Part shown: positions 47,265-63,057 of the stretch, piece by piece
Layout of the letters: each line of letters opens with the position of its first letter
Numbering within the stretch: position 1 is the first letter of the stretch
DNA from: a virus
Virus record (IMG/VR): IMGVR_UViG_3300042691_020140
Span: 1 to 64,000 of that record
Length of the DNA stretch: 64,000 nucleotides
Reading direction: 5' to 3' (one strand)
Position numbers and translations under genes: made by a program
The notes under the pieces: generated by a model
Told to the model about the DNA's origin: nothing
Databases searched by the model: none
Seen by the model: only the letters and a program-made list of their open reading frames with translations

Positions 47265-47331
47265 CTCTCATCTGGCTCTCATCTAATTCTCATCTAAATC
47301 TATTGCTTTCGCAGCTGACATCTGCTAGAAT
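47265..47331 (+). promoter_or_regulatory. Heptamer-box promoter
   Basis: Boxes CTCTCAT (47265), CTCTCAT (47276), TTCTCAT (47287), ATCTATT (47298), each 11 bases apart, then 21 bases to TAGAAT (47326-47331). No -35. Confidence 0.75.
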
Positions 47332-47392
47332 ACCCTCATAGGCTAATTTAATACGTGGGCTCGCCTATGCCCTATTTTCGGAGGCTACTCTT

Positions 47393-47713
47393 ATGTCAAG
47401 CGCAAATCTCTTGGTGACCGTGACCGTCCTGACCGCTTACGAGGCTAGCAGCAAGGTCCTGACTCTGACCGCCATTGACGAGGTCCTGTATGAGCATCGT
47501 CAGCTCATCGTGCCGGTTATCGATGCGGTCAAGGGTACGAAAGCGTACAACACCTTGCCGGTCTTGACTTTCGGTACTGTTATCGTAGTAGCGTCATGGC
47601 GTGATGAGTGCTATACGCTCAAGACCGATACCCATGCGATGTATAGCCACGTCGAAGAATTCTTTCAAGGTCTCTGCTACGACGAGGACGTGCGAAAGAT
47701 ACGGGTAATCTAA
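47393..47713 (+). CDS. Cassette gene, hypothetical 106 aa
   Basis: ATG 47393, RBS CGGAGG. Starts MSSANLLVTVTVLTAYEASS; alternating strands and a helix-rich acidic end (EEFFQGLCYDEDVRKIRVI). More GC-rich codon use than the structural genes. Function unknown. Confidence 0.65.
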   Translation: MSSANLLVTVTVLTAYEASSKVLTLTAIDEVLYEHRQLIVPVIDAVKGTKAYNTLPVLTFGTVIVVASWRDECYTLKTDTHAMYSHVEEFFQGLCYDEDVRKIRVI

Positions 47714-47962
47714 AATAGCCCGAAAAATGGGGGAGTCGCAGCTCCCCTATTTTTTATGTCTACAATTTTTGGGGGACTGCGGGAGTCCCCTATTTTTAAT
47801 TTTGGGGGAGTCTTCGAGTCCCCTATTTTTTATGTCAATTTCTCCCTCCGTCCCGCCCCCGTCTCCCCCAAGCCCCCTATTCCTGCGACATCATCAAACC
47901 CATCGCACTTATACACTAAGGGAGCTCGTGAGCATTTTTTGGGGGACTCCAGCAGTCCCCCA
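47714..47962 (+). repeat. Hairpin block with C-rich module and element D
   Basis: Hairpins at 47729-47747, 47769-47789, 47803-47823, a C-rich stretch (47845-47880), element D GCACTTATACACTAAGGGAG (47905-47936, copy in this order), and hairpin 47940-47961. A 370-base gap without a gene. Long open frames here are translations of the repeats. Confidence 0.8.
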
Positions 47963-47973
47963 AATTTTTTTCT

Positions 47974-48030
47974 TTCTCATAATCTTCTCATCTAACTCTC
48001 ATTTTCGCAGCGGTGTTTTTATGGTATTAT
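47974..48030 (+). promoter_or_regulatory. Heptamer-box promoter
   Basis: TTCTCAT (47974), TTCTCAT (47985), CTCTCAT (47996), GCAGCGG (48007, degenerate) in 11-base register, then 11 bases to TATTAT (48025-48030). Confidence 0.7.
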
Positions 48031-48083
48031 ATAAGTGTAGACAAAACCGGCGGACGAGCTACACCGCCACCCTGGGGGATGCC

Positions 48084-48377
48084 ATGAAGCATCAACGCAA
48101 ACCGGTTAAGCCGATTTATGCCATCGTGTTTATCAACGAGGATGGCACCGGCGGTATGTATTTTGATGACTATCTGCATGTTGTCCGTGGACTGCACGGT
48201 ATACGCAAAGATAGTCCTGAAATGAAGCTCGGTATCGTCAAGTTTGACCTGTATCGTCGCCGTGTATCGTTGCTCAAAGTGCATAATTATGGTATAGATA
48301 CCATAGACGATACGCAACCATTTTGGACAAAAGAGACTATGGTAAAATTACTCTGCTTCACACCACCGACGTACTAA
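48084..48377 (+). CDS. Cassette gene, hypothetical 97 aa
   Basis: ATG 48084 with GGGGG 5 bases upstream. The open frame continues upstream through the promoter and hairpins, but that part cannot be coding. MKHQRKPVKPIYAIVFINEDGTGG start, basic and beta-rich, with a helical middle (YLHVVRGLHGIRKDSPEMK). Not recognised. Confidence 0.65.
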   Translation: MKHQRKPVKPIYAIVFINEDGTGGMYFDDYLHVVRGLHGIRKDSPEMKLGIVKFDLYRRRVSLLKVHNYGIDTIDDTQPFWTKETMVKLLCFTPPTY

Positions 48378-48390
48378 AACGACCACAGAA

Positions 48391-48491
48391 ATGGGGGAGC
48401 TACGGCTCCCCCATTTTTTATGTCTACAATTTTTGGGGGACTCGAAGAGTCCCCTATTTTCTAGTTTTAGGGGTGTCCCGCAGTCCCCCAT
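48391..48491 (+). repeat. Hairpin block (3 hairpins)
   Basis: Type A GGGGGAGCTACGGCTCCCCC with T-run, B GGGGGACTCGAAGAGTCCCC, C GGGGTGTCCCGCAGTCCCCC after the 48084 gene. Confidence 0.85.
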
Positions 48492-48506
48492 TTTTTGCTA
48501 TGATTT

Positions 48507-48527
48507 TAGGGGAGCCGTAGCTCCCCC
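48507..48527 (-). terminator. Hairpin terminating the leftward cassette
   Basis: GGGGGAGCTACGGCTCCCC read leftward, followed by TAAAATC. It has the type A arrangement, placed after the leftward gene. Confidence 0.6.
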
Positions 48528-48540
48528 AAAACCGTGTCGG

Positions 48541-48708
48541 TTACATAGTACCGATTACTACGAACACAAACAACGCCCACATCAAAAGAAACGCCAAGTA
48601 CCCATGACGCACACGGCTATCCACATCGTACTCGATGACAATTGACCAGGACCACACGACGATACCCATGATTACGATAGTAGCCACACCCAAAGATGCC
48701 ATCAACAT
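48541..48708 (-). CDS. Two-TM small membrane protein, 55 aa (family member 2)
   Basis: A leftward gene within the otherwise rightward array. ATG 48708, stop TAA 48541, RBS AAAGG. Sequence MLMASLGVATIVIMGIVV then a polar turn (EYDVDSRVRHG) and a second hydrophobic stretch (AFLLMWALFVFVVIG). It aligns end to end with the 46426 gene. A full heptamer-box promoter facing left lies upstream. Confidence 0.75.
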   Translation of the reverse strand: MLMASLGVATIVIMGIVVWSWSIVIEYDVDSRVRHGYLAFLLMWALFVFVVIGTM

Positions 48709-48742
48709 GTCCGTAGCCTTTCTGTTAACTTAATCCTCTTAC

Positions 48743-48809
48743 AGTATACACTATGTCGGCTGCCGATACAAGGGATTTAGATGAGAGTTAGATGAGAGAA
48801 AAATGAGAG
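48743..48809 (-). promoter_or_regulatory. Heptamer-box promoter, leftward
   Basis: Read leftward: CTCTCAT (48809), CTCTCAT (48798), CTCTCAT (48787), ATCCCTT (48776), then 21 bases to TATACT (48748-48743). It is an exact mirror of the rightward promoters and shows that the promoter travels with its gene. Confidence 0.82.
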
Positions 48810-48813
48810 AAAA

Positions 48814-48836
48814 TGGGGGACTCGGGCAGTCCCCCA
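48814..48836. repeat. Single hairpin between divergent units
   Basis: GGGGGACTCGGGCAGTCCCCC. Separates the leftward unit's promoter from the next rightward unit. It is followed by AAAATT-type short repeats (48841-48880). Confidence 0.7.
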
Positions 48837-48881
48837 AAAATCAAAAATCTAAAATTGAAAATTCAGAATTCATTAATCAAA

Positions 48882-48926
48882 TTCTAATCTAAAATGCTTG
48901 TATTGTATACTTGCATATGGTACAAT
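48882..48926 (+). promoter_or_regulatory. Heptamer-box promoter
   Basis: TTCTAAT (48882), AATGCTT (48893), then 21 bases to TACAAT (48921-48926). The palindrome GTAATCAAATGATTAC (48933-48948) lies at the transcript start. Confidence 0.65.
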
Positions 48927-48970
48927 TCTAGTGTAATCAAATGATTACATGCTAGTAGCGGAGGTCGGCT

Positions 48971-49105
48971 ATGGTGTGCGATATTTGCGGCGGCGATGTT
49001 TCGAGCGACAACGTCCACGAGGAGTCCTGGTCGCCATTTTTCGTCTGTTGCTCAGAGTGCGGCGGCGCAGCTGAGGACGTGCTAGACGACGACAACGCCG
49101 AGTAG
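48971..49105 (+). CDS. Small zinc-ribbon protein, 44 aa
   Basis: A short frame missed by length cut-offs. ATG 48971, RBS GGAGG, stop TAG 49103. Two Cys pairs (CDIC at 3-6, then CC..EC, 27-31) enclose an acidic loop, and the tail is strongly acidic (EDVLDDDNAE). Probably a zinc-binding mini-protein acting on a host target; unproven. Confidence 0.65.
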   Translation: MVCDICGGDVSSDNVHEESWSPFFVCCSECGGAAEDVLDDDNAE

Positions 49106-49118
49106 TACAATCAAGCGG

Positions 49119-49253
49119 AATGGGGGAGTTACGGCTCCCCCATTTTTTATGTCAATAAATTTTTGGGGGACTGTGGGAGTCCCCTATTTTTGATAGATTT
49201 TGGGGGTGTCCCACACTCCCCTAAAAATTTTAGGGGAGACCCAGCTCCCCCAT
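49119..49253 (+). repeat. Hairpin block (4 hairpins)
   Basis: GGGGGAGTTACGGCTCCCCC, GGGGGACTGTGGGAGTCCCC, GGGGGTGTCCCACACTCCCC and GGGGAGACCCAGCTCCCCC after the zinc-ribbon gene. Confidence 0.85.
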
Positions 49254-49256
49254 TTT

Positions 49257-49345
49257 CTCTCATAATTCTCTCATCTAATTCTAATCTAATTTGCTTGCGT
49301 GTGACCTGGTTATAGTGTATACTAGTATTGTAATCAAATGATTAC
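49257..49345 (+). promoter_or_regulatory. Heptamer-box promoter and leader palindrome
   Basis: CTCTCAT (49257), CTCTCAT (49268), TTCTAAT (49279), TTTGCTT (49290), then 21 bases to TATACT (49318-49323). GTAATCAAATGATTAC at 49330-49345. Confidence 0.8.
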
Positions 49346-49366
49346 ATCGCAGCGACGGAGGATGTC

Positions 49367-49582
49367 ATGGGTGAGTATACTGTAGTAGTGGTGAGTGCCA
49401 TCGAGGGTGTCGTGTGGGTGCGTGAGAGTGTGACGATAGCACATCCTCACATGGTAGACGCTGTCAAGATTGCCTACGAGGAATCACTTGCATCTGAGTG
49501 TCAGTGCGTTGTGCATGTGTATCGCAATCGTCACTTGCAGCGGTCAATAACGATTAGTCATCCTGAGTTAGAAAAAGAGTAA
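49367..49582 (+). CDS. Cassette gene, hypothetical 71 aa
   Basis: ATG 49367, RBS GGAGG. MGEYTVVVVSAIEGVVWVRES: beta strand, then helix (MVDAVKIAYEESLASE), then strand. A small alpha/beta protein with two Cys. Unknown. Confidence 0.62.
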   Translation: MGEYTVVVVSAIEGVVWVRESVTIAHPHMVDAVKIAYEESLASECQCVVHVYRNRHLQRSITISHPELEKE

Positions 49583-49885
49583 GAAAATGGGGGAGTCGCA
49601 GCTCCCCCAAATTCTAAAAATGGGGGAGTCCCAGCTCCCCTATTTTTTATGTCTATTAAATTTTAGGGGACTGCGGGAGTCCCCTATTTTTAATTTTGGG
49701 GGAGTCTTCGAGTCCCCTATTTTTTATGTCAATTCCTCCCTCCTACCCCAACCCCCCGCAAGCCCCCCTAGCGTTGGATAACGTGAACGCCCTAGCACTT
49801 ATACACTAAGGGAGCTTCAGAGCATTTTAGGGGACTCTTCGACTCCCCCATTTTTTGCAATTTTTGGGGGAGCTGCACTTCCCCT
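49583..49885 (+). repeat. Hairpin block (6 hairpins), C-rich module, element D
   Basis: Hairpins near 49589, 49622, 49663, 49697, 49829 and 49866. A C-rich stretch (49733-49770) precedes element D GCACTTATACACTAAGGGAG (49795-49826), which shares its first 22 bases with the 47905 copy. Gap of 406 bases without a gene; open frames here are translations of the repeats. Confidence 0.8.
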
Positions 49886-49890
49886 ATTTT

Positions 49891-49968
49891 CTCTCATCTT
49901 TCTCTAATCTAAATTACTACTATTCGCAGCGAACATAGTGTATAATACTATTGTAATCAGATGATTAC
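49891..49968 (+). promoter_or_regulatory. Heptamer-box promoter and leader palindrome
   Basis: CTCTCAT (49891), CTCTAAT (49902), ATTACTA (49913), then 21 bases to TATAAT (49941-49946). GTAATCAGATGATTAC at 49953-49968. Confidence 0.8.
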
Positions 49969-49988
49969 ACGATAGCTAAGGAGACGGT

Positions 49989-50216
49989 ATGTATACTCTC
50001 AAAGTGGATGGCTACACGCTCGGTCAATGGAACACGATAGCAGAAGTGGAAGTTATTTTCAACGTGTTACCGTTAATGCTCAACAAAATGACCGCCGGTG
50101 ATGGCTACTTTGCCGGTATCTATGCGGCGGACAATTCTTTGGTCAAGTGGGATACGATACACGCCCCTAAGACCAACGACGACGACGCAGAAGATTTGAT
50201 GCTCGAATTCAACTAA
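49989..50216 (+). CDS. Cassette gene, hypothetical 75 aa
   Basis: ATG 49989, RBS AAGGAG. MYTLKVDGYTLGQW start, alpha/beta with an acidic tail (DDDAEDLMLEFN). The DNA-mimic-like acidity is only in the last 15 residues. Unknown function. Confidence 0.62.
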   Translation: MYTLKVDGYTLGQWNTIAEVEVIFNVLPLMLNKMTAGDGYFAGIYAADNSLVKWDTIHAPKTNDDDAEDLMLEFN

Positions 50217-50227
50217 GCACGGCAAGA

Positions 50228-50323
50228 ATGGGGGAGTCGCAGCTCCCCCATTTTTTATGTCTACAAAATTTTGGGGGAGTCGAAGAGTCCCCTAAAAACT
50301 TAGGGGTGTCCGGCAGTCCCCCA
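50228..50323 (+). repeat. Hairpin block (3 hairpins)
   Basis: Type A GGGGGAGTCGCAGCTCCCCC plus T-run, B GGGGGAGTCGAAGAGTCCCC, C GGGGTGTCCGGCAGTCCCCC. Confidence 0.85.
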
Positions 50324-50339
50324 TTTTAGCTGCACAGAT

Positions 50340-50396
50340 TACTCATAATTCTCTCATCATTTACTCATACTATTGCGTATGAATGTAGTGTATACT
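50340..50396 (+). promoter_or_regulatory. Heptamer-box promoter
   Basis: TACTCAT (50340), CTCTCAT (50351), TACTCAT (50362), TTGCGTA (50373), then 11 bases to TATACT (50391-50396). A GTAAGTTAG-type leader follows. Confidence 0.75.
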
Positions 50397-50432
50397 TAGT
50401 ATTGTAAGTTAGCTTAGATATGGAGGTTACCG

Positions 50433-50621
50433 ATGGCGACGGCACAAGTTAAGCGCATCCGCATAGATGGGGTGCATGTATCAATGTGGCGGTATGGTAG
50501 CAAAGAATGGTCATTCACCATCTACGGACCTCGTGAGACGCAAGAGCTGTTGGTTAAGCGTATGGACTATTGGAAAGCTTACCGTACTGCTAAATTGATG
50601 ATTAACCTCTATCACAAGTAG
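50433..50621 (+). CDS. Cassette gene, basic protein 62 aa
   Basis: ATG 50433, RBS GGAGG. MATAQVKRIRIDGVHVSMWRYG: strands then a basic helix (LLVKRMDYWKAYRTAKLM). Net positive charge; may bind nucleic acid. Unknown. Confidence 0.62.
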   Translation: MATAQVKRIRIDGVHVSMWRYGSKEWSFTIYGPRETQELLVKRMDYWKAYRTAKLMINLYHK

Positions 50622-50637
50622 TACACCGGCGGTTTTT

Positions 50638-50731: not shown

Positions 50732-50765
50732 AAAATCAAAAATACAAAATCGAAAATTGAAAATT

Positions 50766-50843
50766 CATTAATCTAATTTTAATCTAAAATGCTTGCATCT
50801 GCTATATACACATGTTATAATGACTATGTAATCAAATGATTAC
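50766..50843 (+). promoter_or_regulatory. Heptamer-box promoter and leader palindrome
   Basis: CATTAAT (50766), TTTTAAT (50777), AATGCTT (50788), then 21 bases to TATAAT (50816-50821). GTAATCAAATGATTAC at 50828-50843. Confidence 0.65.
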
Positions 50844-51223: not shown

Positions 51224-51294
51224 TTCTCATCTTTCTCTAATGTTGGCTGCAAGTTTTTCATGGTACAATACTTGTGTAGGGTCAATCTTGACCC
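51224..51294 (+). promoter_or_regulatory. Heptamer-box promoter and leader palindrome
   Basis: TTCTCAT (51224), CTCTAAT (51235), GCTGCAA (51246), then 11 bases to TACAAT (51264-51269). GGGTCAATCTTGACCC at 51279-51294. Confidence 0.72.
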
Positions 51295-51306: not shown

Positions 51307-51552
51307 ATGAACCGCCAAAAATTCGCTCAGTTCCTAGAGGACACCCGTTGCCACTTGTCCGGCAAGGCACACAATCTGACCGACCACCGGCTAGGTGAAA
51401 TCGACCGGATGCTCGACAATGCCCACAATCTGATTTTCGCCAACGATGCCGGTTATTCTCGGGCGGACATGGACACCGCCGTTGCTATGGTTCGGTATGT
51501 CCGTCGCCGTCTTGACCCGTTGCCGTGGGTAACTCTCGACGACATAATGTAA
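51307..51552 (+). CDS. Cassette gene, helical protein 81 aa
   Basis: ATG 51307, RBS GGAGG; a GTG further upstream lies before the RBS. Mostly helical (FAQFLEDTRCHLSGKAHNLTD), His/Arg-rich with an acidic end. Unknown. Confidence 0.62.
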   Translation: MNRQKFAQFLEDTRCHLSGKAHNLTDHRLGEIDRMLDNAHNLIFANDAGYSRADMDTAVAMVRYVRRRLDPLPWVTLDDIM

Positions 51553-51629: not shown

Positions 51630-51694
51630 TCCTCATCGTTCTCTAATGTTGGGGCTTTCGCCCTATGATATAATACAAATAGGTCAAGTTGACC
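51630..51694 (+). promoter_or_regulatory. Heptamer-box promoter and leader palindrome
   Basis: TCCTCAT (51630), CTCTAAT (51641), GGGCTTT (51652), then 10 bases to TATAAT (51669-51674). GGTCAAGTTGACC at 51682-51694. A partial element D follows (51698-51720). Confidence 0.75.
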
Positions 51695-51723: not shown

Positions 51724-51966
51724 ATGTATCAGGTAGTTATCGAATTCCGTGATGCGTACATTGAGACTGAGATGGAAAAGTTGACAGATTTGCGTGACAT
51801 AATATCAGAGACTATTCCGAATTATATTCAGTATGCTGAGCTGTATCTCGGCGAGCCCGTCCGTAAGGCACACGCTACAATATCGTCTAATGGTGTACTT
51901 ATCGGCGTTAAGTTGTTTTCATTCTATCGTCAAAAGTTATCTGAAAAGTTGGAGGTCTTCATCTAG
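51724..51966 (+). CDS. Cassette gene, hypothetical 80 aa
   Basis: ATG 51724, RBS AAGGAG. MYQVVIEFRDAYIETEMEKL; alpha/beta. The longer open frame upstream covers the promoter and is not coding. Unknown. Confidence 0.62.
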   Translation: MYQVVIEFRDAYIETEMEKLTDLRDIISETIPNYIQYAELYLGEPVRKAHATISSNGVLIGVKLFSFYRQKLSEKLEVFI

Positions 51967-52107: not shown

Positions 52108-52163
52108 CTCTCATCTAGCTCTAATCTAATTCGTGCATAGACGTGTGATATGTTTGTTATAAT
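52108..52163 (+). promoter_or_regulatory. Heptamer-box promoter
   Basis: CTCTCAT (52108), CTCTAAT (52119), TTCGTGC (52130), then 21 bases to TATAAT (52158-52163). GTAAGTTAG-type leader. Confidence 0.77.
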
Positions 52164-52201: not shown

Positions 52202-52558
52202 ATGCGAATACGCAAGCCAAAGTACTATTACGTGATTCTGAATGAGCAACGTGCTAACGTTGACAGTAGCGTAGAGGCGTATGAGGATTTTTCAGAGCGT
52301 GTAAAAAGTGTGCCTATTCTTGTGTGGAAACGCACGCCGTTTACTATTGAGCAGCTTAGCCGTCTCGAGTGTGAATTAAACGGTATTGATATGTGGCAAT
52401 TTACGCAAATTGACGAGAATTTTTACGGCAATGAATTGCCACGTCATATCCATCAAAAGTGGCAATACGGCGAATATATCAGAGAAGAGGAAAAATTCCG
52501 TAAGGCGGTACGCAAGCAATTAGCAGACTATAAGAAAAAACATCCTATAGTCAAATAA
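52202..52558 (+). CDS. Cassette gene, basic protein 118 aa
   Basis: ATG 52202; only a weak RBS (AGGATGG) is visible. Start MRIRKPKYYYVILNEQRANV; ends in a highly basic helix (REEEKFRKAVRKQLADYKKK). One Cys, no metal cluster. May bind nucleic acid. Unknown family. Confidence 0.6.
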   Translation: MRIRKPKYYYVILNEQRANVDSSVEAYEDFSERVKSVPILVWKRTPFTIEQLSRLECELNGIDMWQFTQIDENFYGNELPRHIHQKWQYGEYIREEEKFRKAVRKQLADYKKKHPIVK

Positions 52559-52660: not shown

Positions 52661-52714
52661 TTCTAATCTTGCTCTCATAATTATGTACTATAATACAAAT
52701 AGGTCAAATTGACC
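52661..52714 (+). promoter_or_regulatory. Heptamer-box promoter and leader palindrome
   Basis: TTCTAAT (52661), CTCTCAT (52672), then 10 bases to TATAAT (52689-52694). GGTCAAATTGACC at 52702-52714. Confidence 0.8.
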
Positions 52715-52734: not shown

Positions 52735-53076
52735 ATGAAGATGATACTAATCTATGTACAGGATGAGCATGACATTTTTAATCTTGTGTATAGCACACAC
52801 AATGACACAATGCCGGACGAAACAATACACGATATTGCACGCACACACGCACGGCACGCATGTACTGAGAATCGTTGGGATTGGACTATGATACGTATTG
52901 TTAAGGCACACGTCTCGCCGTCCACGCAAGAATTACCTACATTGTCAGTAACATTCATGATAGACGTTGAATATACGCTAGATTACAGCGACGGCGAGGA
53001 AACAATGGAATTAGCAGACTACATAAAACAAGTACGGCGTGATTATTCAGACGGTATAGGTAATCCATTTAAGTAA
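52735..53076 (+). CDS. Cassette gene, hypothetical 113 aa
   Basis: Start ATG 52735 chosen by analogy with the next cassette, where GAAAGGCGG precedes the start by the same distance; an ATG at 52717 overlaps this RBS. MKMILIYVQDEHDIFNLVYS, His-rich helix (DIARTHARHACTENRWD), then strands. Unknown. Confidence 0.62.
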   Translation: MKMILIYVQDEHDIFNLVYSTHNDTMPDETIHDIARTHARHACTENRWDWTMIRIVKAHVSPSTQELPTLSVTFMIDVEYTLDYSDGEETMELADYIKQVRRDYSDGIGNPFK

Positions 53077-53156: not shown

Positions 53157-53211
53157 CTCTCATCTGGCTCTCATAATTATTGTTTATAATACAGATAGGT
53201 CAAAATTGACC
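53157..53211 (+). promoter_or_regulatory. Heptamer-box promoter and leader palindrome (clearest example)
   Basis: CTCTCAT-CTGG-CTCTCAT (53157-53174), then 10 bases to TATAAT (53185-53190). GGTCAAAATTGACC at 53198-53211. Confidence 0.85.
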
Positions 53212-53230: not shown

Positions 53231-53437
53231 ATGAAAATTGCACAAATGCTACTGAATGACGCATCATTCACGCAACAGGATGTCGAGGAATTCTACGCAG
53301 ACTACCAACCAACCGAGCAAGATATTGCCGACATGCAACGTGGATGGGACGAGATTGAGACCAACTTGTCAGAGGTCGATTATGTCGAGCAATTCGAGAA
53401 CGCCCTGCTCTATGGTGATGGCGATTTGCCGTGGTAA
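53231..53437 (+). CDS. Cassette gene, acidic protein 68 aa
   Basis: ATG 53231, RBS AAAGGCGG. A strongly acidic helical protein (QDVEEFYADYQPTEQDIADM). High negative charge is compatible with a DNA-mimic type inhibitor; only the composition supports this. Confidence 0.62.
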   Translation: MKIAQMLLNDASFTQQDVEEFYADYQPTEQDIADMQRGWDEIETNLSEVDYVEQFENALLYGDGDLPW

Positions 53438-53520: not shown

Positions 53521-53554
53521 TTCTCATCTGGCTCTCATAATTATCGTGTATACT
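53521..53554 (+). promoter_or_regulatory. Heptamer-box promoter
   Basis: TTCTCAT-CTGG-CTCTCAT (53521-53538), then 10 bases to TATACT (53549-53554). Leader begins ATGGTTAGATAACAG. Confidence 0.83.
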
Positions 53555-53587: not shown

Positions 53588-53848
53588 ATGTTTGGTATGA
53601 TGGATTTGGTAAGTTTGGCAAAAGATGCGATTGTAGGCATTAATCAATTAGGGACGTATGGCGAGCGACGTTATGAGGCAAATACGCCTGAGGCTATCAT
53701 GGCTATTCACCACTTTTTTGAGAATCGTATGTTTGGCGGTTATGCTACGGTATACCTGACGTGTGGATGTCAGTACATGTTCAACGCCCGTGATAGTCTG
53801 ACTAGTGAAAGCTTGTGCGAGGGTCACGCAGAAACATTAGACATGTAA
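53588..53848 (+). CDS. Cassette gene, hypothetical 86 aa
   Basis: ATG 53588, RBS AGGAGG. N-terminal helix (MFGMMDLVSLAKDAIVG), C-terminal part with three Cys (YLTCGCQY...SLCEGH) that may bind metal. Unknown. Confidence 0.62.
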   Translation: MFGMMDLVSLAKDAIVGINQLGTYGERRYEANTPEAIMAIHHFFENRMFGGYATVYLTCGCQYMFNARDSLTSESLCEGHAETLDM

Positions 53849-53927: not shown

Positions 53928-53972
53928 CTCTCATCTGATTCTTATCTAATTAGCTTTTTGCTATGATATAAT
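53928..53972 (+). promoter_or_regulatory. Heptamer-box promoter
   Basis: CTCTCAT (53928), TTCTTAT (53939), TTAGCTT (53950), then 10 bases to TATAAT (53967-53972). Confidence 0.78.
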
Positions 53973-54006: not shown

Positions 54007-54294
54007 ATGAAGTATGCGAACAAACAATTTTCCCACGGAACGCTCAACCCTCGGCACTTGCTAGTAATTTCCTTAGATTTTATTAAGGATGTTGCTGACC
54101 TGCTGAGTGAAGTTAAGGATGTGTTACGTAAGGCGGCGTATCTTTCACATGCTGACGAGTGGCACGAGCTGACTGAGATGTGGATGACTGTGTTTGAGTA
54201 TCTCGAAACACTTGCAGAAGATGGCTATTACTTCGGGTGTACTGAGGGTGATGGTAGCGACATCGGATGGTGGCAAGTGGTGGGGGAGGACTAG
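54007..54294 (+). CDS. Cassette gene, helical acidic protein 95 aa
   Basis: ATG 54007, RBS CGGAGG. Helices IKDVADLLSEVKDVLRKAAY and DEWHELTEMWMTVFEYLETL, acidic end. Unknown. Confidence 0.62.
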   Translation: MKYANKQFSHGTLNPRHLLVISLDFIKDVADLLSEVKDVLRKAAYLSHADEWHELTEMWMTVFEYLETLAEDGYYFGCTEGDGSDIGWWQVVGED

Positions 54295-54341: not shown

Positions 54342-54375
54342 CTCTAATCTGGTTCTCATAAATGTGTTGTATAAT
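54342..54375 (+). promoter_or_regulatory. Heptamer-box promoter
   Basis: CTCTAAT-CTGG-TTCTCAT (54342-54359), then 10 bases to TATAAT (54370-54375). Confidence 0.82.
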
Positions 54376-54420: not shown

Positions 54421-54837
54421 ATGGGATTAGACATGTACGCATGGGCAGTGCCGACCGAGATTCGTGATGGTTTGTTGGGCGAGGATGGTTTCGATTTGGA
54501 TGCCGTGGATTTGTCAGCAGCGGGCGTTAACACCGATTTGGCGTATTGGCGAAAACATCATCACTTGCACGGATGGATGCAACGCCTGTATGCTGAAAAG
54601 ACCGGCAACGAGGACGAGTCAGCGTTTAATTGTGTGTATGTGGAATTGACCGCCGATGATTTGGACCGATTAGAAGAGGCAATTACCAACGATGAATTAA
54701 CACCGACCGAGGGATTTTTCTTTGGCAGTCATACTGATATTTGCGACGACGACCGAGAGTCTGACTTGAAGTTTTTAGTAGACGCACGAGAAGCAATCGC
54801 AGACGGCTATCACGTACTCTATCATTCATGGTGGTAG
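54421..54837 (+). CDS. MGLDMY/YWRK family protein, 138 aa
   Basis: ATG 54421, RBS GGAGG. MGLDMYAWAV start and the LAYWRKHHHLHGWMQRLY segment are the signature of a family that is widespread in phages and some bacteria. It has no established function, and some members are labelled phosphoglycerate kinase-like without basis. Acidic C-terminal half with C/D-rich turn (HTDICDDDRESD). Confidence 0.7.
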   Translation: MGLDMYAWAVPTEIRDGLLGEDGFDLDAVDLSAAGVNTDLAYWRKHHHLHGWMQRLYAEKTGNEDESAFNCVYVELTADDLDRLEEAITNDELTPTEGFFFGSHTDICDDDRESDLKFLVDAREAIADGYHVLYHSWW

Positions 54838-55608: not shown

Positions 55609-55664
55609 CTCTCATTTTTCTCTCATCATTCTCTAACGTTACGGCGTATGTGGTATGCTATAAT
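55609..55664 (+). promoter_or_regulatory. Heptamer-box promoter
   Basis: CTCTCAT (55609), CTCTCAT (55620), CTCTAAC (55631), CGGCGTA (55642), then 10 bases to TATAAT (55659-55664). Leader GGTTAGGAAAGCAGTAG. Confidence 0.8.
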
Positions 55665-55708: not shown

Positions 55709-56308
55709 ATGAGCAAGAAACATGTGGTGCGTGAGATGGATTTCGGTTTCAAGACTGACGTGCAATTGATTTGTGCCGTCACCGGTGCGAGTGCTGACAA
55801 AGTGACAAAGCCACTTGCGTACCTGTCTGAGGCTAGTGAAGCAGAATTGTCACAATGGTTTACGCCTACGCAAATCACACGCCTCAAGTCTGCTTTTGAG
55901 CTGTCTAAGCGTCGTGCCGTATCGTTGCCCACGCAAATCCGTGCCCCTGCTGATGCAGCTACGTACCTGATGGCTAACTATCAAGACAAGATGCAAGAGC
56001 ATTTTATCGTGTTGTGTCTGAATACGAAAAATCGCATCATCTCGACGGTAGAATTGTACAAAGGTGCATTGAACACTAGCGTAGTACGCACCGGCGAAGT
56101 ATTCCGTGAGGCTATCAAAGTTAACGCATGTGCTATCATCATCGCACATAATCATCCGAGTGGTGATATTACGCCGTCTGCTGAGGATGTCAGTACTACC
56201 CGAGATATTGCAAGTGCCGGTAAATTGTTAGACATCGATTTACTAGACCACTTGATTATCGGGCATGGTCAATGGACTAGTCTGCGTGAGCGTGGCTTAG
56301 GATTCTAG
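55709..56308 (+). CDS. RadC-like JAMM-domain protein
   Basis: A 199-aa protein. Residues 1-95 include a helical region similar to the helix-hairpin-helix-type N-terminal part of RadC. Residues 96-199 are the JAB1/MPN-type RadC domain: LCLNTKNRIISTVELYKGALN, then IIIAHNHPSGDITPSAED with the H-x-H-P-S-G-D metal motif. The E in the VEL strand is also present. RadC proteins occur widely in mobile elements and phages but their activity is not settled. The only array gene with a clear family assignment besides the YWRK one. Confidence 0.88.
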   Translation: MSKKHVVREMDFGFKTDVQLICAVTGASADKVTKPLAYLSEASEAELSQWFTPTQITRLKSAFELSKRRAVSLPTQIRAPADAATYLMANYQDKMQEHFIVLCLNTKNRIISTVELYKGALNTSVVRTGEVFREAIKVNACAIIIAHNHPSGDITPSAEDVSTTRDIASAGKLLDIDLLDHLIIGHGQWTSLRERGLGF

Positions 56309-56387: not shown

Positions 56388-56433
56388 CTCTCATCATTCT
56401 CTCATACTATTCTGTTTGTAGACATGCTATACT
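56388..56433 (+). promoter_or_regulatory. Heptamer-box promoter
   Basis: CTCTCAT (56388), CTCTCAT (56399), TTCTGTT (56410), then 11 bases to TATACT (56428-56433). The leader GGTTAGGAAAGCAGTAG is almost identical to that of the RadC-like unit. Confidence 0.8.
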
Positions 56434-56475: not shown

Positions 56476-56667
56476 ATGAAGCAGGTACAGGACATGGAGC
56501 AGACCATTAATCGCAAGGTTATCAATCCGTTTAAGACGATTTTGGACCTTATGACGATGGGGCACTCGTATCGTGACGGCGCAATCATGCGTGTGATGCT
56601 CGCCGGTTATCTCATCAACTGGTTAGAGGGGTATCGCCGATACTGGGATAGCCAAATCGGGCGGTAA
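56476..56667 (+). CDS. Cassette gene, helical 63 aa
   Basis: ATG 56476, RBS AAGGAG. MKQVQDMEQTINRKVINPF, then a basic/amphipathic helix (AIMRVMLAGYLINWLEGYRR). Might associate with membranes. Unknown. Confidence 0.62.
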   Translation: MKQVQDMEQTINRKVINPFKTILDLMTMGHSYRDGAIMRVMLAGYLINWLEGYRRYWDSQIGR

Positions 56668-56745: not shown

Positions 56746-56791
56746 CTCTCATTATTCTCTAATGTAGCACACACTTTTTGTATGCTATACT
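56746..56791 (+). promoter_or_regulatory. Heptamer-box promoter
   Basis: CTCTCAT (56746), CTCTAAT (56757), CACACAC (56768), then 11 bases to TATACT (56786-56791). GTAAGTTAGTTAG leader. Confidence 0.78.
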
Positions 56792-56822: not shown

Positions 56823-57038
56823 ATGAAGGCTAAACTTCGTATCGGTGATGATGGTCGGTTAGAAAGATACTACGCTACACATTGTCAGACATGTGGGATT
56901 GAGCAACGTCACTTGCGTGCGTTTGGCTTCCCACTAAAGTTTTATGACTTTTATCACTACTGCTTCTTCGATGGTCACAGAGGTACTAAACATATTTGCA
57001 AAGTGTGTGAACACAAGTATTCGCAATATCAGCCATAG
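56823..57038 (+). CDS. Small zinc-finger protein, 71 aa
   Basis: ATG 56823, RBS AGGAG. Cys pairs C-Q-T-C (about 21-24) and C-K-V-C (about 61-64) enclose an aromatic loop. HNH-like spacing is not complete (no N-x-x-K/R-G). Probably a zinc-binding protein. Confidence 0.65.
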   Translation: MKAKLRIGDDGRLERYYATHCQTCGIEQRHLRAFGFPLKFYDFYHYCFFDGHRGTKHICKVCEHKYSQYQP

Positions 57039-57335: not shown

Positions 57336-57381
57336 CTCTCATCTTTCTCTAATGTTTCTAAGCATATACGCATGGTATACT
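57336..57381 (+). promoter_or_regulatory. Heptamer-box promoter
   Basis: CTCTCAT (57336), CTCTAAT (57347), CTAAGCA (57358), then 11 bases to TATACT (57376-57381). GTAAGTTAG leader. Confidence 0.78.
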
Positions 57382-57411
57382 AAGTATGTAAGTTAGTTAT
57401 AGGAGGTAGTG

Positions 57412-57660
57412 ATGATTAGCGTTTTGATTGTCGGTGGTGACCGCTCGAGCATGGTAGACGGTTTGGCGTATGACTTGCATAAGGGTATCATTTTCTTGCG
57501 ATTCAAGACGACGCAAAAATGGTACGCAAAGCATGTCGGTTTGGAATACATCATGGAAGCTATTGACGTGTGGATGGATGAGAATCAGTCATTTGGCAAG
57601 TGGGCAAATCAGAATCACATTACTAAGAATATGACATTTTTTAGTGATGTAGACCTGTAA
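57412..57660 (+). CDS. Cassette gene, hypothetical 82 aa
   Basis: ATG 57412, RBS AGGAGG; a GTG directly before it is also possible. MISVLIVGGDRSSMVDGLAY start resembles a small alpha/beta fold; aromatic middle (FLRFKTTQKWYAKH). Unknown. Confidence 0.62.
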   Translation: MISVLIVGGDRSSMVDGLAYDLHKGIIFLRFKTTQKWYAKHVGLEYIMEAIDVWMDENQSFGKWANQNHITKNMTFFSDVDL

Positions 57661-57771: not shown

Positions 57772-57838
57772 CTCTCATCTGTCTCTCATTTAATTCTAAG
57801 CACTTATTAATATAGGGCGGTCGTGAGCATGTTATACT
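57772..57838 (+). promoter_or_regulatory. Heptamer-box promoter overlapping element D
   Basis: CTCTCAT (57772), CTCTCAT (57783), TTCTAAG (57794), then degenerate boxes in the same 11-base register (TATTAAT, GGCGGTC) and 10 bases to TATACT (57833-57838). Element D (GCACTTATTAATATAGGGCG, 57800-57830) lies between boxes and -10. Confidence 0.72.
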
Positions 57839-57871: not shown

Positions 57872-58576
57872 ATGCGTTTTGTAGTAGCTTCAAAAAATGA
57901 CAAATTGTCCCGTGGTAAAAATGTCATTGCCACGTATAGCCGGACCGGTGTTTCTTGTCCGTCGTCGTGTATGTTTCATCCCGAGCCCGATGCGTATGCC
58001 GTTGAGAAGCGTAATGCTTTCGGACGTGTCACAACGTGCTACACGTTGAAAGGCAACACACGCTATCATCAAAAGAGTCTTACATCTATCGATGCTCTTA
58101 AGGTGCGTGTAAGTGTTAAGAAGTTTCTTGATTTACGTAATGCTAAACGTGGTAAAGGTGTCACGCAAGCTAAACGTATTGATACAATCCGGTGGAATGT
58201 GTCCGGCGATGTTTTTGACGGCAATCTACCTAACGTTGAGTATATTGACGCAATTGTTTGGGCGTGTCAACAATTAGATAACGCAGGCATTAAATCGTTA
58301 GGTTATACACACGGATGGCACTTGCCTGAATTGCAAGCCCTTAAACAATGGTTTATGGCTTCATGTGATACAAAAGAAGAGGTATTGCAAGCTCAAGAGA
58401 TGGGATGGATGACCGCCCTCGTTATCGGCGATAATACAGACGTTAGCGGTCTTAAAATCGGTAAGTGTCCAAATCAGCTGACAAAAGGCAAAATTAAATG
58501 TGATGAGTGTATGCTATGCTCGCCCTCAAGCTTGCCAAAGTTTAGCTCTCGTGTGGTAGGTTTAAGCTATCACTAG
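57872..58576 (+). CDS. Phage protein with CPSSC and C-terminal Cys cluster, 234 aa
   Basis: ATG 57872 with GAGG upstream. Residues about 20-40 (TGVSCPSSCMFHP) and the C-terminal C-x-x-C motifs (KCDECMLC near 215-222) suggest a Cys-rich metal-binding protein. The family is one I have seen in other phages, without function (small radical-like or Zn domain cannot be decided). The middle is mixed alpha/beta (DAIVWACQQLDNAGIKSLGY). The 55225 gene carries only its start motif. Confidence 0.66.
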   Translation: MRFVVASKNDKLSRGKNVIATYSRTGVSCPSSCMFHPEPDAYAVEKRNAFGRVTTCYTLKGNTRYHQKSLTSIDALKVRVSVKKFLDLRNAKRGKGVTQAKRIDTIRWNVSGDVFDGNLPNVEYIDAIVWACQQLDNAGIKSLGYTHGWHLPELQALKQWFMASCDTKEEVLQAQEMGWMTALVIGDNTDVSGLKIGKCPNQLTKGKIKCDECMLCSPSSLPKFSSRVVGLSYH

Positions 58577-59762: not shown

Positions 59763-59794
59763 AACTACCTCCTATAAATCTCGACTACACGTTT

Positions 59795-59840
59795 AGTATA
59801 GCACAGATAATCACCAGATTACATTAGAGCCACGTTAGAA
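59795..59840 (-). promoter_or_regulatory. Heptamer-box promoter, leftward
   Basis: Read leftward: TTCTAAC (59840), CTCTAAT (59829), TCTGGTG (59818), then 11 bases to TATACT (59800-59795). Second leftward promoter of this class. Confidence 0.78.
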
Positions 59841-59844
59841 TTAA

Positions 59845-59869
59845 TAGGGGACTCTTCGATACCCCCATT
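59845..59869. repeat. Type B hairpin between divergent units
   Basis: GGGGACTCTTCGATACCCCC, between a leftward and a rightward promoter. Confidence 0.7.
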
Positions 59870-59873
59870 CTCT

Positions 59874-59918
59874 CTCTCATCTAATTCTAATGTTGACATT
59901 TCTAATGTATGCTATAAT
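59874..59918 (+). promoter_or_regulatory. Heptamer-box promoter
   Basis: CTCTCAT (59874), TTCTAAT (59885), ACATTTC (59896), then 10 bases to TATAAT (59913-59918). Confidence 0.77.
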
Positions 59919-59950
59919 ACAAATGGGTTAAGTTTTAGTAGGAGTTAGTG

Positions 59951-60796
59951 ATGATTACTAAGTTTGTGTTCACCTCAAATGGTGCGGGCGGGATGAATGT
60001 TGTCGTCAATGGTGAGAATGTCGGTGCTATGTACCCTGATACGACTGGCATGTACGAGCTTTATCAAATCACCGATGTTGACACCGAAAACGAGAGTTTG
60101 AAAGTCAGCTACAACGCTATTGATTTGCGTAAGCGTATGACTACTAAACAGGCTGTCGAAGAAATGCTTAAGTGGAACACTGGACGGCATATGTTAGATA
60201 GTGGCGGTTATGGTAATCGTGGATGGGAGCGTTTGCAGGGCGTTGATTTAATGGCACGTCCTGAAGCTGTTATCGATGAACATGGTTATACGCAAGACTT
60301 GTTTCACTACCTGATTGAGCGTGTACACTTCTGTCAAGAAGCACAAGAATACTTCGATAAGGTGGACGCTGAGAATCCTGACTTGTCATATGCTGAGATT
60401 CTTAAGAAGCTCTATGATGAAGATGTGATTATCCACAACTGCTCGGGCTTGACTGCTAATGAAGATAATACCCTGTCACAGGACTTCATTTGGCATAGCG
60501 TAGAAGTCAAGTTGCCACAGTGGGATGATTATGAGACTATGACTATTATTCAATCGCACAATGGTGCAGATATTCGGGGCGGTTATTCTAAGCCATTCTT
60601 CTTTATGACTGAGTACGAAAACATCTTGTTAGATATTAATCGTGCTTGTGTATACTGTGATAGCTGTCATACTAACTGGTACAGTGATGATGGTTCTAAC
60701 ACATGGGAGAGTGATGACGATGGGGCGTGTGATTGGACTAACAACTGGAATGGCACAAACTTTGTATGTGCATGTGGCGGAGTAATTAAGGCATGA
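59951..60796 (+). CDS. Cassette gene, 281 aa with C-terminal zinc ribbon
   Basis: ATG 59951, RBS AGGAG. The largest array gene. Acidic and mixed alpha/beta; N-terminus MITKFVFTSNGAGGMNVVVN. The C-terminal 60 residues hold a C-x2-C-x2-C pattern (CVYCDSCHTNWYSDDG) and a final CACGG, likely a zinc ribbon. First gene of a three-gene unit. Unknown function. Confidence 0.68.
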   Translation: MITKFVFTSNGAGGMNVVVNGENVGAMYPDTTGMYELYQITDVDTENESLKVSYNAIDLRKRMTTKQAVEEMLKWNTGRHMLDSGGYGNRGWERLQGVDLMARPEAVIDEHGYTQDLFHYLIERVHFCQEAQEYFDKVDAENPDLSYAEILKKLYDEDVIIHNCSGLTANEDNTLSQDFIWHSVEVKLPQWDDYETMTIIQSHNGADIRGGYSKPFFFMTEYENILLDINRACVYCDSCHTNWYSDDGSNTWESDDDGACDWTNNWNGTNFVCACGGVIKA

Positions 60797-61149
60797 AAAT
60801 CACGGAATATGTAGCGAAGCTAGTAGACGGTCGTATTGACGGATGGTATCTCGAAAATCCCTATGTAGTGCTTCGCTACATAGGGTATGAGGGGGAAGAC
60901 CAAGACCCTTTTATTATGGAGACTGACTGGTATAGCATGGCTTGGTGTGCGTTGATTCAAATTTTGCCCGACGATGTTATTGTTAATATCATGTGCGAGC
61001 CTAACTGGTTTATGAAAGCTGCACACCAAAAGTACTATGAAGTGGTAGCAGAGGTTGAATTAATCTCTGGCGTGTGTTATAATGTAGATGTGTTCGATGG
61101 TGATATTATTCTAGTGAAGAAAGGTGATGTAGATGAATGTACCGATTAA
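60793..61149 (+). CDS. Hypothetical protein, 118 aa
   Basis: ATG overlaps the previous stop by four bases. MKITEYVAKLVDGRIDGWYL; alternating strands and a helix around the Cys in WCALIQILPDDVI. Acidic end. Cotranscribed with the neighbours. Unknown. Confidence 0.62.
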   Translation: MKITEYVAKLVDGRIDGWYLENPYVVLRYIGYEGEDQDPFIMETDWYSMAWCALIQILPDDVIVNIMCEPNWFMKAAHQKYYEVVAEVELISGVCYNVDVFDGDIILVKKGDVDECTD

Positions 61150-61435
61150 CGTGTCAGCAATGACAAAGACAGAGCGCAAAGCTCTAATCAAGATTTTGCA
61201 GGGCAATTTCACAGACCGTCTGATTATCCAACTTGGTGATACTATGGTGACTGCTCACGGTTGGGAGTACGCCGAGAATCCATCATGGTACACTCTGTAC
61301 TACAAAGACAAGATGGTACACCAAGACGCTACGTTGGATGAGTTGTTTGATACCGATAACTATATCACGAACGTGGATGATGATGAATTAGATGCAATTC
61401 GAAAATGGTTTGATACATTCCAACCTGAATGGTAA
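61133..61435 (+). CDS. Hypothetical protein, 100 aa
   Basis: Overlaps the previous gene by 17 bases. MNVPINVSAMTKTERKALIK; helical start then beta and an acidic helical end (DDDELDAIRKWFDTFQPEW). Unknown. Confidence 0.62.
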   Translation: MNVPINVSAMTKTERKALIKILQGNFTDRLIIQLGDTMVTAHGWEYAENPSWYTLYYKDKMVHQDATLDELFDTDNYITNVDDDELDAIRKWFDTFQPEW

Positions 61436-61439
61436 GCAG

Positions 61440-61509
61440 TGGCCCTCGGTGCTAGCATCGGGGGCCATCTCTTTGGCTTAGAAAATAGGGGAGTCGAAGA
61501 GTCCCCCAT
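61440..61509 (+). terminator. Terminator and type B hairpin
   Basis: TGGCCCTCG/CGGGGGCCA stem (61440-61467) with TCTCTTT, then GGGGAGTCGAAGAGTCCCCC (61487-61507). Confidence 0.75.
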
Positions 61510-61512
61510 TCT

Positions 61513-61581
61513 CACTCATCAAATTCTCATTTTACTTTTGCCTAAAGTAGTGTATAATAAAGATGTTAGCAAATGACTAAC
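61513..61581 (+). promoter_or_regulatory. Heptamer-box promoter and leader palindrome
   Basis: CACTCAT (61513), TTCTCAT (61524), CTTTTGC (61535), then 11 bases to TATAAT (61553-61558). GTTAGCAAATGACTAAC at 61565-61581. Confidence 0.77.
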
Positions 61582-61608
61582 ACAGATTCGATTAGAGGAG
61601 TTAGACAG

Positions 61609-62058
61609 ATGGACATCAAGCAGTTTATTCAGGAGATGCAGGCGTTCGAGCGTACACTTAACAACGTGTACGACGAGATTGATTCAAGCGTGGTAGACAG
61701 TTTGGAAAACGAGATTGACGGATTGCGTGATTCTCTCCGTGACATCGAGAGTACTGTCAGCGATTGGTCAAATCAGCTTGACGAGGTGCGTGACGAATTC
61801 AACGCCCTCAAAGGGATGGTCAATGACATCGAGGATGAGCCGGTCAAGACTGAGATTGTGCTTATGTCAGATTGGCAGATGCAACAAAAGAAGACCTTTG
61901 TCCGCAACAACTTGCGTAACACAGAGCTTCTGACATCAATGCTCAAAGCAGACCCACAATCATTTTGGGTGACTATCGCTACCTGTATCGTAGAAGACCC
62001 ATTCCATTGTTCGGACCTCGCTGATTTTGTGGTGAATTATGAGCAGTACATTAAGTGA
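61609..62058 (+). CDS. Coiled-coil protein, 149 aa
   Basis: ATG 61609 with GAGGAG upstream (an in-frame ATG at 61573 lies in the leader palindrome). MDIKQFIQEMQAFERTLNNV; residues 5-95 form an acidic coiled coil, then a helical C-terminus. Overlaps the next gene by 20 bases. Unknown; could be a scaffolding or inhibitor protein. Confidence 0.65.
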   Translation: MDIKQFIQEMQAFERTLNNVYDEIDSSVVDSLENEIDGLRDSLRDIESTVSDWSNQLDEVRDEFNALKGMVNDIEDEPVKTEIVLMSDWQMQQKKTFVRNNLRNTELLTSMLKADPQSFWVTIATCIVEDPFHCSDLADFVVNYEQYIK

Positions 62059-62320
62059 TTTGGTGCTGAGCTATCGTGGGACCCCTACCCTTTGTGTGGT
62101 AGGGGACTCCCTCCCACGGGAGCAATGGCTATGGAAGAATTACAGTTTCTTGTCTAAGTTTGCTACGCCTGTCGGGCCACTACCCGAGAATGAAGCTAAC
62201 TTCACAGACAATCTAGCGTTTGTCGTACACGAAATGTTTTGGGATGTCAATGCACAGTTAGAGAAGTATAAGTTGCAGCTAGAATATGCCGGCGGTAATC
62301 TTTATCTAGTCCGTATGTAG
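62039..62320 (+). CDS. Hypothetical protein, 93 aa
   Basis: ATG 62039. MSSTLSDLVLSYRGTPTLCV; mixed, helical in the second half. Cotranscribed with the coiled-coil gene. Last gene of the array in rightward direction. Unknown. Confidence 0.62.
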   Translation: MSSTLSDLVLSYRGTPTLCVVGDSLPREQWLWKNYSFLSKFATPVGPLPENEANFTDNLAFVVHEMFWDVNAQLEKYKLQLEYAGGNLYLVRM

Positions 62321-62324
62321 GCCC

Positions 62325-62393
62325 GAAGCATCCCTAGAAATAGGGGTGCTTCTTTTTGGTGCAAATATTAGGGGACTCTTCGAGTCCCCCATT
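62325..62393 (+). terminator. Terminator and type B hairpin
   Basis: GAAGCATCCCTA/TAGGGGTGCTTC stem with GAAA loop and TTTTT (62325-62357), then GGGGACTCTTCGAGTCCCCC (62371-62390). Confidence 0.9.
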
Positions 62394-62418
62394 TCTTACG
62401 TCAAGCTGCACCGGCCAA

Positions 62419-62449
62419 CAAAAAACCCCTCCCTTTGTGGGGGAGGGGC
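62419..62449 (-). terminator. Terminator of leftward gene
   Basis: Read leftward, CCCCTCCC/GGGAGGGG stem followed by TTTTTTG. Faces the rightward terminator of the array. Confidence 0.88.
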
Positions 62450-62464
62450 TTGGGTAGGGCTAGC

Positions 62465-62743
62465 CTACCATTCTAACTTGTTGTTCTGATAGGCGTACAC
62501 GAGAACAGAGCCCTCGGCTTCTGTGATGTGCCCCTTATCTACTGCCAGCTTAACAGCAAGGTCAATGAAAGCACCATCAACAACCACGTCACCATCAAGC
62601 GAGATGTCAAAGTACATTGGCTCTGGATAGTTCTCATAACCGTTGCCCCACAAAGTGATTTCCGAATCACCACGGATGATGTTGTACACAGCCTTAACCA
62701 CAAACTTACCACGGATTTGCTCAATTTGCTCACGAATAGTCAT
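62465..62743 (-). CDS. Hypothetical protein, 92 aa
   Basis: ATG 62743, RBS AAGGAG, behind a consensus promoter. MTIREQIEQIRGKFVVKAVY, an amphipathic helix followed by a beta sheet and a helix (LAVDKGHITEAEG). Acidic. Different promoter class from the array, so probably expressed at another time. Unknown. Confidence 0.65.
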   Translation of the reverse strand: MTIREQIEQIRGKFVVKAVYNIIRGDSEITLWGNGYENYPEPMYFDISLDGDVVVDGAFIDLAVKLAVDKGHITEAEGSVLVYAYQNNKLEW

Positions 62744-62777
62744 AGCTCACATACTCCTTAATTAAGATTACTCAGTC

Positions 62778-62806
62778 AGTATAACACACATTCAGTCATT
62801 TGTCAA
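62778..62806 (-). promoter_or_regulatory. Sigma70-type promoter, leftward
   Basis: Read leftward: TTGACA (62806-62801), 17 bases, TATACT (62783-62778), in front of the 92-aa gene. The -35 lies in the end of the 48-aa gene. Confidence 0.83.
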
Positions 62807-62949
62807 CGTCGGCGATTATCTCGCTCGATTGCGTCGAACAGTCCCAAGATACCGATAACTCCCACCACGATACGAACAACCGGAATGAACAACATGATAG
62901 CCAACAATTCCATAACCATGCGTTCACCCTCTGGGCTAAGATAACTCAA
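62803..62949 (-). CDS. Small membrane-active protein, 48 aa
   Basis: TTG start at 62949 preceded by AGGAGG; stop TGA 62803. One hydrophobic stretch (MELLAIMLFIPVVRIVVGVIGILGLF) and a basic end (RDNRRR). Short and easily missed. Promoter TTGCAT-17-TAGAAT upstream (63015-62987). Could be a membrane peptide; unknown. Confidence 0.6.
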   Translation of the reverse strand: MSYLSPEGERMVMELLAIMLFIPVVRIVVGVIGILGLFDAIERDNRRR

Positions 62950-62986
62950 TACTTAGCACCTCCTTTCTTGATTACATATGTATTCT

Positions 62987-63015
62987 ACCATATATATAAG
63001 CGATATGCAAGTAAA
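62987..63015 (-). promoter_or_regulatory. Promoter of 48-aa gene, leftward
   Basis: Read leftward: TTGCAT, 17-base spacer, TAGAAT, followed by AGGAGG and the TTG start. Divergent from the heptamer-box element at 63024. Confidence 0.6.
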
Positions 63016-63023
63016 TAGCGGCG

Positions 63024-63057
63024 CTCTCATCTTACTCTCATTTTCGGTATATATACA
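63024..63057 (+). promoter_or_regulatory. Heptamer-box promoter pointing into origin region
   Basis: CTCTCAT-CTTA-CTCTCAT (63024-63041), then 10 bases to TATACA (63052-63057). No gene follows within 350 bases, so the transcript may serve another purpose such as origin activation or priming. Confidence 0.65.

Follow-up and report, generated by a model that had tools for sequence, protein, structure and literature searches.

What reads the short direct repeats that stand upstream of gene after gene between 47.0 and 63.1 kb of the IMG/VR virus record IMGVR_UViG_3300042691_020140, and does this reader belong to the phage or to its host? The window analyzed here comprises bases 1-64,000 of the 76,099-bp record; the remaining bases were read as well, and heptamers were scanned on both strands. 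The repeats are copies of YTCTMAT that follow one another at exactly 11 bp and keep helical phase with a downstream -10 element, in three promoter classes that are conserved across a group of related phages and shared with cellular promoters, while no regulator that could read them was detected among the phage proteins searched. With a probability of about 0.7, these heptamer arrays are sites for a response regulator of the OmpR/PhoB family that belongs to the host and has been co-opted by the phage, by which the array genes would be placed under one host signaling system.

On the + strand, 20 YTCTMAT pairs are spaced by exactly 11 bp, a sharp peak given that nearly all other spacings count 0-1 pairs, and three further pairs lie at 22 bp. 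Within the array (47.0-63.1 kb), 36 heptamer pairs occur at 11 bp, as compared with a mean of 0.32 and a maximum of 2 in 100 first-order shuffles and with a single pair in the 44-kb structural part. When a -10 element within 4-39 bp is demanded in addition, 37 matches are found against 0.14 by shuffling, and none of them falls in the structural region. An independent scan that allowed one mismatch returned 37 pairs where 1.9 were expected, 36 of which lie between 47.2 and 63.1 kb. An earlier note on this stretch had claimed that the heptamers keep a fixed 11-bp pitch beyond chance, and had named beforehand an equal frequency in shuffled sequence or in the structural region as the observation that would speak against it; this comparison has now been run, no equal frequency was found (36 versus 0.32, structural 1), and the claim is borne out. 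Tandem direct repeats at an 11-bp pitch upstream of a -10 element are the arrangement of OmpR/PhoB-type promoters.

Under strict rules, 22 promoters are recognized in the window, 20 forward and 2 reverse, each followed by an open reading frame (ORF; Table 1); for promoter 2 the automatic start search gave no ORF, and the one at 48084 was assigned by eye. The gap, measured from the end of the pair's last box to the first base of the -10 element, is 10, 21/22 or 32 bp in the strict promoters, that is, it grows in steps of one helical turn, and, seen from the -10 element, the boxes therefore always occupy roughly one helical face. These results leave the earlier description of the array standing in outline and amended in detail. 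The array of about 25 promoters is real, but its strict number is 22, with a few more degenerate members (50772, 63025); the box is present in multiple copies, but most promoters carry two or three of them rather than two to five; gaps of 10 and 21/22 bp were found much as described, but the 32-bp class had been overlooked; and both strands are used, yet merely two promoters lie on the - strand. The statement that almost every array gene has boxes is mostly correct, except that the first array genes are devoid of them. Ordinary sigma70-type promoters were read by eye at these genes instead, near 45.0, 46.4 and 46.8 kb, and a possible earlier expression class is formed by them. The region from 44.9 to 46.8 kb, with TTGACA-17-TAAAAT at 46761-46789 as an example, provides an internal contrast to the box promoters.

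The same promoters are found in related phages. Five further records (G001-G005) were recovered by a pattern scan of the viral collection and by protein searches, and most of the proteins that they devote to structure and replication share 30-95% identity with those of the window phage. The promoter class is present in all records, with 10 to 25 promoters per record under the same rules and the 22-bp class dominating in some, whereas most array ORFs have no homologue beyond the closest relative; therefore, the promoters are conserved and the cargo turns over. No useful cultured relative was found: the only match of a capsid-region protein, to Microcystis phage MaeS, reaches 25% identity, no match was obtained for the putative terminase, and the matches of the DNA polymerase and the TROVE protein are distant and widespread. 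In the rest of the record, a DUF2828/DUF7788 protein (TROVE/Ro-like; L001, 4463-5884) is 40-45% identical to proteins of many unrelated large phages. In the array regions of G002 and G003 (L234, L235), an extra palindrome of the type TTTACAC-N1-GTGTAAA directly precedes the boxes of several promoters and may serve as another operator.

Together the six related phages contribute 69 promoters once near-duplicates are set aside, and the core elements differ with the position of the boxes, although the class sizes depend on a promoter consensus drawn from the same data. In the 10-bp class (n = 9, one also scored as 22-bp), TTG at -35 is never seen and the -10 element is extended in 3 of 9. The 21/22-bp class (n = 42) has the extended -10 motif TGn in 40 promoters and TTG at -35 in only 1, while of the 17 promoters in the 32-bp class 13 have TGn and 8 a TTG-type -35, the background for the latter being 6%; two of these eight are full TTGACA. 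The earlier statement that no -35 box is present thus holds for the first two classes but not for the third. Such a pattern would be expected of an activator that replaces the -35 element when it is near and spares it when it is further off. A fixed helical phase between box and -10 element, combined with a -35 element that is weak or absent where the boxes are near, is characteristic of OmpR/PhoB-type promoters.

Moreover, the box has a life outside phages. In a scan of bacterial and archaeal genomes with the gap left free between 5 and 35 bp, the gap peaks at 10 bp, with at least 26 of about 130 sites among the matches listed, followed by at least 8 at 11 bp and about 3 at a typical other gap. 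In four genomes, namely a Dehalococcoidia metagenome-assembled genome, another from Chloroflexota and two from Actinomycetota, orthologous genes for OmpR-family regulators are preceded by TTCTCAT-N4-TTCTCAT-N10/11-TATAAT, which ends 1-6 nucleotides from the ATG; one of these genomes has another such site in front of the neighboring gene, which encodes an ABC-transporter ATPase. In Bacilli, sites stand before two regulator genes (Paenibacillus, Sporolactobacillus) and, as read by eye, also before genes for PepSY-like and DedA-like membrane proteins. Sites adjoin a regulator gene in 4 of the 6 genomes of one search set, a placement that would rarely arise by chance, and they look like autoregulated OmpR-family systems. 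The earlier guess of an OmpR/PhoB-type operator is well supported, since the same box pair adjoins OmpR-family regulator genes and the cellular gap peaks at 10. A literature search returned nothing usable on TTCTCAT as a regulator box. Patescibacteria were considered as a box-bearing lineage and dropped (0 of 172 genomes).

Whether the phage encodes the regulator was addressed at the protein level. The predicted genes, represented by 100 protein entries, were scanned against Pfam and matched nucleases, a polymerase, RecA, ribonucleotide reductase, methylases and others, as well as a weak HTH_32 in a structural-region protein; no response regulator or sigma factor was found among them. In addition, a profile built from 26 regulators was run against all six-frame ORFs of the six phages and gave a best E value of 0.11, versus 3e-30 for the E. 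coli PhoB control. What had been left earlier as a host regulator or the phage's own factor is hence narrowed towards the host, as no response regulator was detected in six phage records.

As to the host, the window carries a gene for a BMP/PnrA-type substrate-binding lipoprotein (41416-42570), a candidate nucleoside-uptake helper that is present in four of the five relatives. Its closest cellular relatives are Chloroflexota, where matches with E below 1e-40 occur in 16 of 121 sampled genomes, versus 1 of 81 Actinomycetota genomes, and the best six matches all come from one class; mainly on this gene, a Chloroflexota bacterium is predicted as the host. When 158 genomes of the predicted host class were scanned with a free gap of 8-38 bp, nine sites were found, eight of them at exactly 32 bp, and the reversed-pattern control gave 0. 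Of these eight, five precede sigma70-family genes that are orthologs of one another, and the other three precede a gene for a small membrane protein; the sequences within each group are related, and so the eight sites count as two independent families of promoters, not as eight separate events. In a further BMP-bearing genome of this class, the copy of this sigma gene is preceded by TCTCATCTGGCTCTCAT, identical to the pair in the phage, and a -10-like CATACT follows at 32 bp. A box shared by phage promoters and promoters of the predicted host class is what would be seen if the phage uses a host system. The box before the sigma70-family gene points to a possible regulon of the host, with a sigma factor under the control of a response regulator. 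TCTCATN5TCTCAT-N32-TATACT precedes a sigma70-family gene in one Chloroflexota class (L195, L306, L317, L328-L332). The gap-10 geometry was sought in the class of the best BMP matches and found in 0 of 150 genomes, the free-gap scan having shown a gap of 32 there, and plain box pairs across BMP-bearing genomes are overall no commoner than the reversed control.

A candidate for the regulator itself is provided by the recognition helix. The pattern N[IV]x[ED]xYx[RK]YLR is common to the regulators with a TTCTCAT box and to conserved regulators of BMP-bearing Chloroflexota, and because of this match a conserved regulator of the latter is proposed as the candidate, although its gene is preceded by no TTCTCAT pair. 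Two Chloroflexota OmpR-family regulator genes (L288, L292) have TTCCAAT-type repeats at an 11-bp pitch, 10 bp from the -10 element; their products lack the pattern and differ in the recognition helix, a sister box type.

From these arrangements we infer binding and activation, a responsible protein and signal on the side of the host, and a Chloroflexota bacterium as that host. Regulator dimers would bind a pair of 11-bp repeats in head-to-tail orientation, with one, two or three helical turns between them and the downstream -10 element, and would bring in the RNA polymerase of the host with its sigma70-type factor. Where the gap is 10 bp, the boxes would touch the core promoter and replace the -35 element; in the 21/22-bp class the extended -10 would take over this role; and in the 32-bp class a weak -35 would often be kept. 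In this way, the whole array of small accessory genes could be driven by one host signaling system. Several points weigh against a host regulator. Most array proteins have no known domain, which leaves room for an unrelated phage-encoded activator. The host assignment derives mainly from one gene, BMP, with 55-59% identity to its best Chloroflexota homologues. The box loci of the predicted host class have 58-67% GC versus 42% in the phage, and in BMP-bearing Chloroflexota the closest regulators are encoded by genes that lack an upstream TTCTCAT pair. More tentatively, and at somewhat less than even odds, the phage group may have turned a single response regulator of its host into the master switch for the accessory arsenal, keeping about 10-25 promoters per genome in helical register while the genes are replaced, so that takeover would follow the sensory state of the host.

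The absence of a domain match for most array proteins and many conserved phage proteins would also suit an activator of novel fold encoded by the phage, acting in the manner of middle promoters and imitating a response-regulator operator, and the box-free sigma70-type promoters read by eye at the first array genes could drive such an activator early. This is nevertheless unlikely, because cellular genomes carry the same box, at the same spacings, in front of genes for regulators and sigma factors, a search of the six phages with the regulator profile came back empty, and the relatives lack homologues of the genes that follow the box-free promoters at 45.7 and 46.8 kb. The boxes may alternatively be repressor operators, through which the array is kept silent, by a regulator of either host or phage, until a signal releases it; proteins of the OmpR family are able to act as repressors, and an operator near the -10 element can block polymerase. 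A -35 element that is absent exactly where the boxes are near, and a helical phase kept over three positions, fit activation, which makes repression very improbable.

The spacing of the boxes bears on the two remaining explanations. An alternative sigma factor, of phage or host, that reads TCTCAT as its -35 would account for the missing -35 consensus in two of the three classes, but a sigma factor requires one fixed spacing and here three spacings lie 11 bp apart, by which the explanation is largely refuted; furthermore, the boxes are tandem, the -10 is of the sigma70 type, and Pfam found no sigma factor in the phage. Helical phasing relative to the -10 element is likewise what UP-element-like or bent DNA contacted by the alpha subunits of RNA polymerase would require. 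However, the conserved core is TCTCAT instead of an A/T tract, and the boxes of the 10-bp class fall between about -40 and -23, inside the core promoter, where alpha subunits do not bind, leaving this explanation, too, hardly credible.

Table 1. Box promoters and candidates in the window; gap in bp, coordinates in the window
Feature	Position	Strand	Boxes	Gap	-35	-10	Downstream gene
Promoter 1	47265..47331	+	3 + extra partial	32	TTGCTT	TAGAAT (47326-47331)	47393-47713
Promoter 2	47974..48030	+	3	22		TATTAT (48025-48030)	about 48084-48377
Promoter 3	48743..48809	-	3	32	TTGTAT	TATACT (48748-48743)	small ORF from 48708
Promoter 4	49257..49323	+	3	32	TTGCGT	TATACT	49367-49582
Promoter 5	49891..49946	+	2	32		TATAAT	49989-50216
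Promoter 6	50340..50396	+	3	22		TATACT	50433-50621
Promoter 7	51224..51269	+	2	22		extended TACAAT	51307-51552
Promoter 8	51630..51674	+	2	21		extended TATAAT	51724-51966
Promoter 9	52108..52163	+	2	32		extended TATAAT	52202-52558
Promoter 10	52661..52694	+	2	10 (PhoB-like geometry)		TATAAT	52735-53076
Promoter 11	53157..53190	+	2	10		TATAAT	53231-53437
Promoter 12	53521..53554	+	2	10		TATACT	53588-53848
Promoter 13	53928..53972	+	2	21		extended TATAAT	54007-54294
Promoter 14	54342..54375	+	2	10		TATAAT	54421-54837
Promoter 15	55609..55664	+	2 + 1 further copy	32 (21 from last copy)		extended TATAAT	55709-56308, RadC domain
Promoter 16	56388..56433	+	2	22		extended TATACT	56476-56667
Promoter 17	56746..56791	+	2	22		extended TATACT	56823-57038
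Promoter 18	57336..57381	+	2	22		extended TATACT	57409-57660
Promoter 19	57772..57838	+	3	32		extended TATACT	57872-58576, DUF7227/GP88-like
Promoter 20	59795..59840	-	2	22		extended TATACT (59800-59795)	59762-59139
Promoter 21	59874..59918	+	2	21		extended TATAAT	59948/59951-60796, two more ORFs downstream
Promoter 22	61513..61558	+	2	22		TATAAT	61609-62058
Degenerate candidate, outside strict set	50772..50823	+	weak boxes			TATAAT	50836/50863-51141
Box pair at array end, candidate only, outside strict set	63024..63060	+	pair			TATATA-rich stretch	

Beyond the promoters, the predicted transcript starts share the motif GTARKY (GTAAGTTAG, GTAGTCAAG, GTAATCAAG), mostly 11-12 bases from the start of the -10 element; in this 11-12-base zone it is found in 33 of 74 promoters (window 47.3-61.6 kb plus G001-G005) versus a background of 2.3%. 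Several leaders in the window have a hairpin at their very start, such as GTAATCAAATGATTAC and GGTCAAATTGACC. GC-rich hairpins of the type GGGGGAGTCGCAGCTCCCC follow nearly every array gene (46.6-62.4 kb), often two of them with differing loops (GTCGAAGAGTC, TCTTCGA), and each array gene looks like an insulated transcription unit.

One genome here offers a built-in comparison of three activator positions, and the promoter class can serve as a sequence tag for small accessory genes whose proteins are too divergent to be recognized. In addition, a response-regulator regulon of Chloroflexota that includes a sigma factor gene is suggested, of which no description was found in the literature.

Among known systems, the closest architectural likeness is to PhoB promoters. 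In E. coli Pho promoters the last heptamer is separated from the -10 element by 10 bp and no -35 is present, as in the 10-bp class of the phage. The Pho box, which serves as structural precedent for the proposed mechanism, consists of two 11-nt direct repeat units with seven conserved and four less conserved bases (PMC4415409), and the phage boxes share both the 11-bp direct repeat and its division into 7 conserved and 4 variable positions. They differ in the heptamer, YTCTMAT versus CTGTCAT, and in the addition of the 21/22- and 32-bp classes. The Pho regulon proper was considered and rejected, as TGTCATN5TGTCAT is absent from the window even with one mismatch, and a PhoB or phosphate link, brought up by the Pho-box-like description in the earlier note, is not supported. 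The boxes appear to resemble PhoB-type promoters in working, but by sequence they are not those of the Pho regulon.

The TTCTCAT genes of Chloroflexota, Actinomycetota and Bacilli have the same box, the same 11-bp pitch and a gap of 10-11 or 32 as in the phage, but the cellular sites number one or a few per genome versus about 20 in the phage. The sites of Staphylococcus aureus ArlR, taken here to be TTTTCTCAT-N4-TTTTAATAA, a form that the literature search did not return, would match in heptamer and pitch if this is right, and are mentioned as a lead only; the ArlR receiver domain is among the solved relatives of the Dehalococcoidia regulator.

The nearest functional precedent comes from cyanophages, in which phage genes under a host two-component system have been described. 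In S-PM2d, for which the host system is PhoBR, putative boxes were present at 7 of 14 up-regulated genes, and gel shifts showed binding of PhoB to 3 promoters (PMC10976474), and pstS of P-SSM2 is under host PhoBR (Zeng and Chisholm 2012, as cited in PMC10976474). The same study cautions that predicted boxes in phage genomes are unreliable without binding tests (PMC10976474), a caution that applies to the window phage as well, although the architecture is far more regular here. As in the cyanophages, phage genes are predicted from sequence to be under a host two-component regulator of the PhoB type. Unlike in the cyanophages, there are 22 strict promoters in one phage with one strict architecture, nearly the whole accessory array is covered, and the group is one for which no cultured relative was found. 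Thus, use of a host two-component system by phages is already known for a few cyanophage genes, and here the accessory array of an uncultured group appears wired to one regulator.

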